From the IMG/VR virus record IMGVR_UViG_3300022848_000047, positions 1 to 27,920 of that record: 27,920 nucleotides of DNA; one strand, 5' to 3'. Shown in pieces: positions 17,827-26,691 of the stretch; position 1 is the stretch's first letter; every line of letters starts with the position of its first letter. The notes under the pieces are model-generated. The model did no database searches. It saw nothing but the letters and a program-made list of their open reading frames with translations, and had not been told where the DNA came from. Source of the stretch: a virus. The position numbers and the translations under genes are program-made.

Positions 17827-18675
17827 TTAAAGAGAATGACATTCGCACGGCATATAGTACGGGTCTATCTCGTCGAGATGGTCCCAAAGTTTTGCCTGTG
17901 CGTCATCTTGATTTGCTACGTCTTCCCATCGTAGTGAATGCCCCCCTAGCCCACGACCCTCAGTTTTCAAAATCGCGTTGGCTTCGATCTTCAAAGCTCG
18001 CTCAAAAAGCTTTGGATGCATTTTTTTGAGATGCAATATCTCTACCCGTTTCCGAGCTGGACAAAAGAAACAAGCACTTTTCCCCGCTTGTGGAATTTTG
18101 TTTCGGCACACCGCTGCACTACATTCCTTGCGGCTCCACCCCCATTCTGCTAGTGGATACCAGAACCGCATCACTCGCCCTTTCTTAAGGTCAACCGGTG
18201 GCCGCTCTTTAAGTCGGTGTTGCTCGCTCGCATCGAACCCCATAGCTAGCGTTATTTCCTTAGATCCAACCTTATCCATGAATTTCTTACGAAGGCTATC
18301 CTGTACCTCTATCTTGAACTTCTGAGAGCACCCTTTTCGACCATAGGCGAGACTCGGAAGCATTTTCATGCGAAGGCAGTTTTCTTCGAGCGTTTCGAAT
18401 TTTCCTTGATAGGTTTTACGAACCGTCTGGATTTCGATTCCCCACCATTCCTTAACCTTCGCGGTCATTATCTCCACATGCTCGTAAGTATGCGGCATCT
18501 CCGATCCTGTATCCGCAAACGTGATTATGTCGGGTCGGATTCCTCTCTCATGGAACCCGCAAAGCATCGCCGTACTATTGGTTCCGCCCCCAAAGGACAC
18601 ACCTAACAACGAATTGGAATCAATGAGCACAGGCGGCTCGGTCGGTTGATTTTCGGTTTCAGTATTTGTACTCAT
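17827..18675 (-). CDS. PAPS reductase / ATP-pyrophosphatase-like protein
   Basis: This 282-residue protein belongs to the adenine nucleotide alpha-hydrolase (PP-loop) group. The PP-loop variant SFGGGTNSTAML is at residues 27-38. DIITFADTGSEMPHTYEHVE follows, as in PAPS reductases. GRKGCSQKFKIE near residue 113 corresponds to the Cys-Thr-x-K substrate region. SACFFCPARKR in the C-terminal third supplies a CxxC. Phages carry such genes widely and their substrate is unresolved; thiolation or sulfur-linked nucleic-acid modification and counter-defence are the usual proposals. No cysteine desulfurase or partner is visible nearby. It is transcribed from a leader containing CACCTAACC. Confidence 0.8.
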   Translation of the reverse strand: MSTNTETENQPTEPPVLIDSNSLLGVSFGGGTNSTAMLCGFHERGIRPDIITFADTGSEMPHTYEHVEIMTAKVKEWWGIEIQTVRKTYQGKFETLEENCLRMKMLPSLAYGRKGCSQKFKIEVQDSLRKKFMDKVGSKEITLAMGFDASEQHRLKERPPVDLKKGRVMRFWYPLAEWGWSRKECSAAVCRNKIPQAGKSACFFCPARKRVEILHLKKMHPKLFERALKIEANAILKTEGRGLGGHSLRWEDVANQDDAQAKLWDHLDEIDPYYMPCECHSL

Positions 18676-20040: not shown

Positions 20041-21174
20041 TTAAAACTCGATTGAGACGTGTGGAATTTTCCCTTGCTCAAGCGCATAAGTGATCCCTTC
20101 AGCCTGGATCTCGTTTAGCTTCATGTAATCAACGAGGAACGCCTGAACTTCAGAGACGATATTCGCCTGATGCTTCTTGTCTGCCTTGCGCTTGAGCTCC
20201 GCGTTTTCCTTGGCGAGTCTGTCGGCTTCGGCTCTGTCTGCGTTTTCCTTGTCGATCGCGGCCAAGTCCTTCGCGATTTTGGCAAGCCGGTCCTCGGTCT
20301 CCTGGATCGCATCGATCTTCGCTTGAGCGATTCGCGCGTCCTCGTCGATCTTGCGTTGCTCCTCGGCCAATTCAAAAGCGATTTTGTCATCATGTATCTT
20401 CTGATCCGCGATAACCTTATCAAGTTCAGCTTGGACGGCTCGATCGGCTTCCAGCTTGTGGTAATGAGCCTTTATTCTGTCTTCTTCCGCCTTTTCTTCC
20501 TCGGCCGCCTGACGCTCCTCATCCTCGATCTTCCGCTTCTCGGCTTCGTCTTGCAGCTTTTTCAACTCGGCGTCTTTTGCCGATTGGGTTTCGATCTCCT
20601 CTTTGCGTTGGACCAATGCTTTCAAAGCTCCAGCTGCGATGATTTCACCTTCGTCGGCGTATTCTTGGAGGTTTGCGGAATCGAATGATCTGACCTCGGC
20701 GATATATGTATCGATCTCCTCAGTATCAAGATTGTAAACGTCAGAACCAATTAATTTAATCCGAGCAATAGCGCTACGATGTTTTTCGCACCGATTATGC
20801 TCTTCGACTTCCCACTCGATAGAAGCCTCCTTACGCTTGTCCCTGATTCCGTCAAAACGAGATTCGAGCCGTATCCGTTCGCTGGTTACGGCCTTGACTG
20901 TCGCCTTGGCGTCCTCGATCGACGCATTTGCCATCTTTACGACCCTGGATTTCGCCTGGGACACCTTGAAGGCTAGAGACTTTTCACGATCACGCCCTTT
21001 GGTGGTCGTGACGTCGATCACTTCAGACATAACTTCGGCTTCAATCGCTTCGGCTGCTCGTTCGATTACGTCGTATTTGTAAATCTCAAGCGACTTGAAC
21101 TCATTCAAAATCGTGAGTGATTGCGTTTCTTCTACTGCTGGTTTTTCTTCGGTTATCATATATCTATTTCTCAT
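20041..21174 (-). CDS. Large coiled-coil protein of the recombination operon
   Basis: This 377-residue acidic protein has long coiled coils (about 85-125 and 200-330, rich in Glu/Lys/Ala such as EEERQAAEEEKAEEDRIKAHY). A compact C-terminal domain (VQAFLVDYMKLNEIQAEGITYALEQGKIPHV) recurs in phage coiled-coil proteins encoded beside exonuclease/RecT pairs. It follows the exonuclease gene; ATG 21174 overlaps its stop and ATG 21159 lies 4 nt after it, either of which could be used. It may organise or regulate the recombinase, but no biochemical role is established to my knowledge. Confidence 0.7.
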   Translation of the reverse strand: MRNRYMITEEKPAVEETQSLTILNEFKSLEIYKYDVIERAAEAIEAEVMSEVIDVTTTKGRDREKSLAFKVSQAKSRVVKMANASIEDAKATVKAVTSERIRLESRFDGIRDKRKEASIEWEVEEHNRCEKHRSAIARIKLIGSDVYNLDTEEIDTYIAEVRSFDSANLQEYADEGEIIAAGALKALVQRKEEIETQSAKDAELKKLQDEAEKRKIEDEERQAAEEEKAEEDRIKAHYHKLEADRAVQAELDKVIADQKIHDDKIAFELAEEQRKIDEDARIAQAKIDAIQETEDRLAKIAKDLAAIDKENADRAEADRLAKENAELKRKADKKHQANIVSEVQAFLVDYMKLNEIQAEGITYALEQGKIPHVSIEF

Positions 21175-23916: not shown

Positions 23917-24105
23917 GTGAACAAACAGGTTAAATATCAGAGGCGTATGCTATCCGAGGGTAGGTGTGTGACTTGCGGGAATGAAGCGAGCCTTAAAAAT
24001 AAGAGGCTTTGCGAATTCCATCGTGAGCGTAGGAGCGTTTACAACCGGACGTACCGTATTAACCAAAAAAAAAAAGAAGTTGACGAAATAATCGCCAACC
24101 TCTAA
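23917..24105 (+). CDS. Small Cys/His-rich protein, zinc-ribbon-like
   Basis: A 62-residue product starts at GTG 23917 (TTG 23911 gives 64). GRCVTCGNEASLKNKRLCEFH provides a CxxC followed after 13 residues by C-x2-H, a zinc-binding layout, and the rest is basic (RERRSVYNRTYRINQKKKE). Phage proteins of this type sit near replication genes and may bind DNA; no catalytic HNH residues are visible. The start directly follows the rightward promoter region, so the message may be leaderless or nearly so. Confidence 0.65.
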   Translation: MNKQVKYQRRMLSEGRCVTCGNEASLKNKRLCEFHRERRSVYNRTYRINQKKKEVDEIIANL

Positions 24106-24377: not shown

Positions 24378-24467
24378 ATGAACGAGGTACTTAATATGCA
24401 AGAAAATGAAAATAGGATGCCGATTATCGGCGATGAAACCTTGAATGTCAGAGAGGAGCGAGATTGA
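24378..24467 (+). CDS. Tiny ORF translationally coupled to the replication gene
   Basis: A 29-residue acidic frame (MNEVLNMQENENRMPIIGDE) stops at TGA 24465-24467, sharing a base with the ATG of the DnaD-like gene (TGATG). That junction is typical of coupled genes in this phage. It may be a leader peptide that meters translation of the replication protein, or a small protein in its own right. Confidence 0.4.
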   Translation: MNEVLNMQENENRMPIIGDETLNVREERD

Positions 24468-25360
24468 TGGAGGGCTGGATATGGTTACACAGGAAGATCC
24501 AAGAGAGTTCCCTTTACCAATCACTCAACTCCAAGCAGCGCGATGTAATGATCCAATGTCTACTCATGGCGAACCACAAAAAGCAGAAGTGGGAATGGGA
24601 GAAGAAAACCTATTGGTGCGAGCGCGGTCAGTTCATCACTAGTCTCGATTCTATCACTCGAAATTGCGGGAATGACGTACGAGTACAGTCAGTACGCACC
24701 GCCTTGCTGAAGCTAGAGAAGTGGGGTTTTTTAACAAACGAATCAACAAAGACAGGAAGGCTCATAACTATCTGTAAGTGGGAGACTTACCAAGGCAAGG
24801 GAGGACTTACTAACAAAGCAACCAACAAAGAGCTAACAAAGACCCAACAAAGAGCTAACAAAGAGCTAACACCTAACAAGAATGGAAAGAATGGAAAGAA
24901 CTCTACTACTACCGCATCAGAAGATGCGGATGTGGAGGTCTGGCTTTCTGCAAAAAAACGGAAGTTAAAGGGCAAGCGGCTCGACGCATTCAAACTGTTC
25001 TGGAAATCATTCGGATTTCCAAAAAGCCGCGCCGCCGCAATCGACGCCTGGCTCGATATTCCGGAGCTCACAGATACGCTTGTCTCCGAAATCTGCAAAG
25101 CTGCCGAATTAGAAGCAACCGAAAGGCCGTCTCTTTTAGCAAATGGGAAAACACCGAAATATGCTCAGGGATGGATTAGCGATAGGCGATGGGAGGACGA
25201 ACTTATCAAATCAGTCGCTCCGATAAACGGATTCGACGCCGACGGCAGGAGACTCGACCCGAACTACGACAATTTCAAAACCTGGAACAGCAACAGCAAC
25301 GCCGGATACGCTCCAGGGCCAACAGCGCCGCCTATAGACCCAAAAAACCGTAGATTATGA
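24467..25360 (+). CDS. DnaD-like replication initiation / helicase-loading protein
   Basis: A 297-residue product starts at ATG 24467 (TTG 24464 is one codon earlier). Residues 1-105 match the phage replisome-organiser winged-helix pattern: GWIWLHRKIQESSLYQSLNS, LLMANHKKQKWEW, RGQFITSLDSITRN, VRTALLKLEKWGFL and a final TICKWETYQ strand. Residues about 108-148 are a low-complexity Asn/Lys/Thr linker encoded by 11-bp repeats. The C-terminal domain (about 160-270) is helical with WLDIPELTDTLVSEICKAAEL. It overlaps the helicase by 4 bp. The protein would bind the origin, probably within its own gene, and load the helicase. Confidence 0.8.
   Translation: MEGWIWLHRKIQESSLYQSLNSKQRDVMIQCLLMANHKKQKWEWEKKTYWCERGQFITSLDSITRNCGNDVRVQSVRTALLKLEKWGFLTNESTKTGRLITICKWETYQGKGGLTNKATNKELTKTQQRANKELTPNKNGKNGKNSTTTASEDADVEVWLSAKKRKLKGKRLDAFKLFWKSFGFPKSRAAAIDAWLDIPELTDTLVSEICKAAELEATERPSLLANGKTPKYAQGWISDRRWEDELIKSVAPINGFDADGRRLDPNYDNFKTWNSNSNAGYAPGPTAPPIDPKNRRL
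24812..24881 (+). repeat. 11-bp iteron-like tandem repeats within the replication gene
   Basis: The core AACAAAG occurs at 24812, 24824, 24835, 24846 and 24857, spaced 12, 11, 11 and 11 bp, then degenerates to AACACCT (24868) and AACAAG (24875). The complete unit is about AACAAAGAGCT. Because 11 is not a multiple of 3, successive units are read in different frames, so DNA-level selection is more likely than protein-level. An origin inside the initiator gene is known in lambda. Confidence 0.65.
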
Positions 25361-26691
25361 GACTAAACGAGACACAATTTGAGATCGAGCAAAGATTTGT
25401 TTCCGCGATCTTCCACAATTCCGACGTCCTCGACCTGCTAGACAGGGCCGATTTAGGATGCGAAATCATCTATAATGACTTTTTACGCAACGTGCTAAGG
25501 CTCTGCATTGCCGAGCGAGCAAAGGGGAACCTCGTTGATATGCTGGCGCTCAAGCGTCAGATGTTTATCGATGGCGCGACAGTACCGGATAAAAGCGAGG
25601 TCGTCGAGCTACTAGACGCCGCCGATACATCGATTCACGCCGTCGATGATTTCCGTCTGATAATCCAGGATTATAAGCGCCGCGTTACCAAAACTCAGGC
25701 CCTAGTACTCCAAACGCTCGCAAACGATGAGGACTGGGACGAGAGCTCGGAGAAAGCCAAAGCCACTCTCCAACAAATAAACGAAATCGACGTTGCCGAA
25801 AAGCCCCTCGGTTATCGAGACCGAGCAAAGGCTGCGCTAAAGCAGCGACAGAATATGATCGAGGGAAAGGTTGAAAACGAGGCCGTCAGGATCAATACGG
25901 GTATCCCATGTATTGATAGATACTGCCGTCCACTGTCTACAGCTACAGGAGATTTCAACTGCATTCTGTTCGCTCCGACATCGACAGGCAAGAGCTCGCT
26001 CATGGCTCAAATAGTTTCCTATAACACATTTAGAAATCTGAATCTAGCCGTTTTTCTGGGTGAGACCAACGTTGAGGGGATGCTTGAGCAAATGGCTGGA
26101 CAGTCTTCCAAGGTTGCTATCGACACGTTTGATTTTAAAAATGAAATGCCGCATCGCCAGCGCGAATATATGGAGCATCTCGAAGATATTGCATCACATT
26201 GCGGCGAGAATCTATTTATTCACGACGATCGATTTTTTATTGAGGACATTATTACGAGGTGCAAAAAGCTAGAGCAGGAAAAGGGGAAGCTGGATTTGGT
26301 CGTCATCGACCATATGCACTGCTTGAGGACCAGGCGTAAATTTACCGACGAGAGGCTGAAGTACAATTATATATCGGGATCGCTCAAACCGTTGGGAATA
26401 GACATGAAATGTCCGATACTTTGCCTCGCACAGCCTTCCAGGGATCTCAAGAAGTCCGGTCGTCCTCCCGTTCGATCCGACCTCAAAGAATCAGGAAACC
26501 TTGAGGATGACGCCGACCGTATTTGGGCCCTCTGGATGCCTCCAACTGCCTCCGACGGGTCGCCGCAAGAAGATAAATCGCCACATCCAGAGATTAGGTT
26601 TTATCAGCTCAAATTCCGACGCGGAAGAGTTAATGATGTCAATCTCAAAATGGAGCGATGCTTCACGCTGTTTACCGACAACGAGGGCTGA
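25357..26691 (+). CDS. DnaB-type replicative DNA helicase
   Basis: This 444-residue protein is a DnaB-family helicase. The N-terminal domain begins FEIEQRFVSAIFHNSDVLD. The Walker A motif APTSTGKSS is at 206-214 and the Walker B LDLVVIDH at 312-319. Further motifs are CLAQPSRDLKK and a DLKESGNLEDDADRIWALW stretch containing the arginine-finger-side motif, followed by QLKFRRGR. It forms a hexamer at the fork and unwinds DNA ahead of the host replisome. The gene overlaps the DnaD-like gene by 4 bp. It is convergent with the terminase gene, leaving only 16 bp between stops. Confidence 0.93.
   Translation: MRLNETQFEIEQRFVSAIFHNSDVLDLLDRADLGCEIIYNDFLRNVLRLCIAERAKGNLVDMLALKRQMFIDGATVPDKSEVVELLDAADTSIHAVDDFRLIIQDYKRRVTKTQALVLQTLANDEDWDESSEKAKATLQQINEIDVAEKPLGYRDRAKAALKQRQNMIEGKVENEAVRINTGIPCIDRYCRPLSTATGDFNCILFAPTSTGKSSLMAQIVSYNTFRNLNLAVFLGETNVEGMLEQMAGQSSKVAIDTFDFKNEMPHRQREYMEHLEDIASHCGENLFIHDDRFFIEDIITRCKKLEQEKGKLDLVVIDHMHCLRTRRKFTDERLKYNYISGSLKPLGIDMKCPILCLAQPSRDLKKSGRPPVRSDLKESGNLEDDADRIWALWMPPTASDGSPQEDKSPHPEIRFYQLKFRRGRVNDVNLKMERCFTLFTDNEG

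Follow-up and report, generated by a model that had tools for sequence, protein, structure and literature searches.

Replication origins inside initiator genes are known from lambda-type O genes and from pSK41 rep (PMC7466680, PMC5703833), and an in-gene origin has been demonstrated for SPP1 gene 38 (PMC6316719). In lambda, O dimers bind iterons that are inverted repeats of 18-19 bp (PMC5043065); by our computation, the starts of these repeats lie 20, 24 and 23 bp apart. An origin within the gene is also indicated for 80alpha ORF20, for which there is no complementation in trans and the ORF20-21 pair drives a plasmid (PMC5499656). In the RepA_N initiators of the pSK41 family, the origin lies in a dispensable linker of rep, and the C-terminal domain has been swapped between replicons (PMC5703833, pPR9); the semi-palindromic iterons described for this family have an A tract at the center (PMC7145576). 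In the Rep_3 iteron plasmids P1, F and R6K, the iterons are helically phased direct repeats to which initiator monomers bind (PMC5043065). Origins inside initiator genes are thus already known, and what is new here, as far as the searchable literature shows, is a class of 11-bp frame-cycling iterons, of which we found no prior description there (the standard review, Weigel and Seitz 2006, lies outside its coverage).

The stretch of DNA that we analyzed (the window) is a 27,920-bp IMG/VR virus record. Besides tail genes, it encodes a RecE/RecT pair and a replication pair (Table 1). A sequence-only reading had described five AACAAAG cores in the linker of a DnaD-like initiator gene and had taken them for a candidate origin in the lambda O arrangement. 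The cores are present as described, starting at 24812, 24824, 24835, 24846 and 24857 (spacing 12, 11, 11 and 11 bp), and they are followed by a partial sixth unit, CTAACACC, at 24866-24873. Tandem Repeats Finder returned the array as the top tandem repeat in the window (24810-24871, period 11, 5.5 copies, score 87). Its period score of 25.5 log units was matched at no period by any of 1000 dinucleotide shuffles (maximum, 12.9). Relative to the ATG at 24467, the cores lie in frames 0, 0, 2, 1 and 0, so that with this spacing the frame cycles only after the first pair. The argument that protein repetition does not explain the repeat held: a period of 11 bp does not preserve the reading frame, and synonymous-codon shuffles, which keep the protein constant, reached the lag-11 signal in only 2 of 2000 trials. 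Because the array also shapes the amino acid sequence, this null retains part of the array signal, and we replaced it with dinucleotide shuffles and neighboring open reading frames. Two AATGGAAAG units had also been seen directly after the array; they occupy 24881-24889 and 24890-24898, so the feature extends to approximately 24900 rather than ending at 24881. The AACAAA words noted shortly upstream (24732-24752) are likewise real, but they encode the wing motif LTNESTK, which is conserved in the protein family, and this AACAAAC/AACAAAG pair consequently needs no explanation at the DNA level. Elsewhere in the window, the total number of iteron matches was at chance level; those with at most one mismatch clustered in the array, with a single stray at 18603, and we therefore saw no second origin in the window. 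The sign of the GC skew switches near 23.5 kb together with gene orientation; as the skew follows gene orientation, it gave no independent signal and is uninformative for the origin.

Table 1. Coordinates of the array, its surroundings and the replication genes in the window.
Feature	Position	Strand	Details
Replication initiator gene (297 aa)	24467..25360	+	PHROG 2514 match; AlphaFold2
Winged-helix DNA-binding domain (predicted)	24467..24796	+	Helix 73-85, wing 89-102 (LTNESTKTGRLIT)
Iteron array, five full units and one partial	24810..24871	+	Consensus CTAACAAAGAG, period 11 bp
Stop-avoiding variant codon CAA	24845..24847	+	Fourth core; the frame there would turn consensus TAA into a stop codon
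Partial last unit and conserved junction CTAACACCTAACAAG	24866..24880	+	Family consensus AACCACTAACAAGAATG; anchored alignment, 42 relatives
Candidate DNA unwinding element	24873..24905	+	AAGAATGGA repeats, 9 bp, 24878-24900
DnaB-like replicative helicase gene	25357..26691	+	Pfam DnaB_C 2.6e-30; phrog_19 4.1e-38

AlphaFold2, run with 38 relatives, predicted an initiator composed of a winged helix (aa 1-110), a disordered linker (aa ~113-153) and a helical C-terminal domain. The pLDDT was ~95 for aa 11-100 and below 50 for aa 113-129 and 142-153, and the helical C-terminal domain was less certain. The disordered linker is encoded by the array and the AAGAATGGA repeats that follow it. The helix and wing listed in Table 1 are the probable DNA-reading elements, judging from predicted secondary structure and from the covariation of wing and iteron among relatives. 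The label "DnaD-like" fits the N-terminal half, which matches the PHROG 2514 DnaD-like helicase loader (E 8.7e-26, residues 1-153), but not the C-terminal domain of the window protein (P0001), which has no match to the DnaD domain TIGR01446; relatives in Bacillus and Staphylococcus phages do match it. The start of the helicase gene overlaps the end of the initiator gene by 4 bp.

The comparison with lambda O stood for location and layout, as in both cases the initiator gene carries the iterons where it encodes the linker, with AT-rich DNA following them. It did not hold for iteron type: the window units are non-palindromic, 11 bp long and arranged head to tail, and the 18-19-bp palindromes that recur every 20-24 bp in lambda are absent. 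The proteins differ as well, in that the window N-domain has no O-type match at threshold (Pfam Phage_rep_O, 17.2 bits, E 0.0077, below the cut-off of 28.7) and the next gene encodes a DnaB-like helicase rather than a P-type loader. SPP1 gene 38, 80alpha ORF20 and TP901-1 rep resemble the window in being initiator or replisome-organizer genes with repeats, but those of 80alpha and TP901-1 have a 15-bp periodicity. As ORF20 shows no detectable similarity to the window initiator and its repeats are of another type, the 80alpha genetics supports the general arrangement only. The RepA_N initiators share a winged-helix N-domain and an origin within rep; the window initiator has no RepA_N family match in a Pfam scan, and its fold similarity is weak (5kbj_A, E 0.09). 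Rep_3 plasmids carry their iterons outside the gene, whereas those of the window lie inside it. Phages of Listeria, Bacillus and Staphylococcus encode related DnaD-like helicase loaders (PHROG 2514 and PHROG 186), which have the N-domain family, the 11-bp array and the junction of the window, but a DnaD C-domain in place of its different one.

For a wider comparison of repeat spacing, relatives were collected from INPHARED phages and IMG/VR, dereplicated to 80 and scanned by likelihood over periods of 8-24 bp. The best period in the corresponding linker was 11 bp in 67 of the 80, and the score exceeded the maximum of 800 dinucleotide shuffles in 67/80. Scores above 20 were reached by 38/80 initiators and by none of 143 neighboring open reading frames. 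Run-based autocorrelation against a synonymous-codon null gave enrichments of 6.2-fold at lag 11 and 5.3-fold at lag 22, compared to 1.4-fold at lag 13 and 0.5-fold at lag 14. A separate scan of named genomes with an alignment query yielded 29 prophage loci (two pairs being near-duplicates) in Bacillota, Bacteroidota and one Phycisphaerae assembly, 23 of which again had 11 bp as the best period; a single-protein query of the same genomes returned no relatives. Overall, most relatives with the same protein do carry the periodic repeats, the opposite of the outcome that the sequence-only reading had named as counting against it. The 11-bp array is a conserved feature of the family, far beyond chance.

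While the spacing is constant, the letters of the unit vary widely, from CTAACAAAGAG in the window to CTAACAAACAG in Listeria, CTAACAAGCAA in Bacillus, CAACAAATCAA in Staphylococcus, a GCAAACGAAT type in Vibrio and TGTCCAGCCGA in Klebsiella, with TGGCAAACAAG, AAATGTCCAGC, GCAACCAACGA and GCAAGCSAGGG as further examples. The window itself belongs to the 11-bp frame-cycling class as we define it here, with an 11-bp period right after the winged helix, frame-cycling units and the junction AACAAGAATG. Eleven bp was not the best period in 13/80 and 6/29 relatives, some of which look degenerate. One of the loci (L219) has a 12-bp in-frame array of six TAACCA-type units at the corresponding linker position, possibly a variant geometry, and another (L183) has no repeats visible in the linker. 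A Bacteroidales assembly (L452) carries ten consecutive 11-bp units (AACAAACGGAT / AACAAACAAAT / AACAAACGAGC), and these form a 33-bp higher-order repeat that fits the cycling through three frames.

Low-complexity DNA that is prone to slippage could in principle produce such repeats while encoding an N/K/T/Q-rich disordered tether without any function in the DNA. The linker is indeed predicted to be disordered and of low complexity, and tandem duplication can create repeats; nevertheless, we regard this explanation as highly improbable, given that 11 bp does not fit the codon period, that unrelated units have one common period, and that the array signal is missing from all 143 neighboring open reading frames. 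Stop-like triplets also speak against it, as they are lost only in frame. In arrays whose consensus contains TAA or TGA, the triplet was intact in 98/103 out-of-frame copies and altered in 28/28 in-frame copies, by a single-base change in 27 of them. An open frame requires the loss of in-frame copies, but not the retention of those out of frame. Arrays of units without a stop-like triplet need no such exception, and these are often near-perfect (L429, L171 and L200). Synonymous codons, moreover, switch between array and flank: the AAT fraction of Asn codons was 0.23 in the array, where AAC is preferred, 0.79 in the next 48 bp and 0.56-0.57 elsewhere in the same genes. These patterns indicate that selection acts on the DNA of the array itself, beyond the protein.

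The DNA that follows the array is unstable. Across 47 loci, the mean AT content was 0.77 over the first 45 bp past the array, up from ~0.62 in the surroundings. In 37/47, the 30-bp stretch of lowest stability within 300 bp began at a position from -11 to +46 relative to the array end. In the window, the candidate unwinding element CTAACACCTAACAAGAATGGAAAGAATGG is within the least stable ~3% of 30-bp stretches; it is less AT-rich than most of its counterparts, and the instability is moderate in the window and strong in relatives. The junction near AACCACTAACAAGAATGATAAGAATG is common to very different iterons, always in an identical reading frame. Array and adjoining unstable DNA together resemble origins built from iterons and an unwinding element. 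The AAGAATG-type 9-bp repeat 3' of the array (24878-24900 in the window) is kept in distant relatives in one constant reading frame, and it may be more than an AT-rich melting site, such as a single-strand binding site or a point of helicase entry.

A winged helix on phased direct repeats would also suit a repressor or a TubR-like partition protein, and our fold search returned only generic winged helices, with CodY first and TubR among them (none with E <=0.001). The array might accordingly be an operator, through which the initiator represses or times its own operon, or a partition site. We consider this unlikely, since the array is in the middle of the gene and not at a promoter, unstable DNA follows it in nearly all relatives, and the genes are annotated as encoding helicase loaders or initiators and often lie beside helicase or loader genes. 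Promoter and terminator scans of the window found nothing linked to the array. Autoregulation by the initiator may in any case be compatible with the array being an origin.

Two loci, L002:5557-6288 and L021:1426-2376, are natural domain swaps, reciprocal to each other, between initiators of the lambda O type and of the window type. The first protein (L002) combines a lambda-O-type N-domain with a window-type C-domain (55% over 91 aa), and 16-bp palindromes spaced 22 and 24 bp lie in its linker. In Erwinia phage 59, a lambda O C-domain (70% over 124 aa) is joined to a window-type N-domain, and the linker carries 11-bp TGCCA units in two clusters. In a control set of 62 lambda-O-type initiators, periods peaked at 15, 18 and 21-24 bp, and the linkers were richer in palindromes. 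From the two fusions and the control set, the comparison of sequences indicates that the class of iteron goes with the winged-helix N-domain. Within the subgroup of the window, K at the first variable wing position accompanies AACAAA(G/C) (25 distinct scored sequences) and N accompanies AACAAGC (5 distinct scored sequences), with no contradictions among the 30 distinct scored cases, a pairing to which shared ancestry contributes. An array by itself does not identify its binder, which could be a host protein or another phage protein, such as a nucleoid protein or a different initiator, rather than the encoded one. That the iteron type follows the encoded N-domain in both fusions, and that wing residues covary with iteron bases, makes such a reader very improbable.

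We therefore favor, with a probability of roughly 80-85%, the reading that the array is the initiator-binding part of a phage replication origin located inside the linker of the initiator's own gene. The proposal of initiator-binding iterons in a candidate in-gene origin thus gains support from stop avoidance, codon bias, unstable DNA and domain swaps. Several copies of the initiator would bind the array through the N-terminal winged helix, head to tail and at about one per 11-bp unit; with about one initiator per helical turn, the copies would all sit on the same side of the DNA. Binding by monomers, as in iteron plasmids, is suggested by the helical phasing of these non-palindromic direct repeats. 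The iterons of Rep_3 plasmids have a period of ~22 bp, and their initiators contain two winged helices. By analogy, this may explain the half period of window-type initiators, with their single winged helix. The crowded initiator complex would then strain and open the unstable AAGAATG-rich DNA just downstream, after which the C-domain would place the DnaB-like helicase encoded by the next gene.

A more extensive proposal, for which we see about even odds, is that these loci constitute an unrecognized class of origin in phages and prophages of Bacillota, Pseudomonadota, Bacteroidota and probably Planctomycetota. Non-palindromic iterons of one helical turn (11 bp) would run through all three frames of the initiator gene, with the DNA and protein codes reconciled by one stop-avoiding base per third unit; the winged helix and array would move between unrelated C-domains as an origin-specificity cassette, and a short wing motif would set the letters of the iteron. 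If this is true, the origins of very many uncharacterized phages and prophages could be read from sequence by finding a winged-helix initiator and folding its linker at 11 bp, whereupon iterons and unwinding element would appear. The class would also show, in a clean natural example, how a DNA signal and a coding sequence can occupy the same bases under opposing constraints, and it would supply a recognition code from wing to iteron that can be tested, with the natural domain swaps as controls.

Among the relatives, Dulem virus 31 (PP511318.1; L018) is filed under Microviridae, yet the 35.8-kb record includes genes for an exonuclease and a replisome organizer, as is typical of tailed phages, and this taxonomy looks wrong. 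Within the window, a strong terminator-like stem followed by ten T lies between the recombination block and the initiator (24075-24103, minus strand). A gene for a 377-aa protein of unknown function (phrog_1376; 20041-21174, minus strand) adjoins the RecE/RecT pair, and a PAPS reductase-like auxiliary gene (phrog_424, E 1e-30) is located at 17827-18675 on the minus strand.
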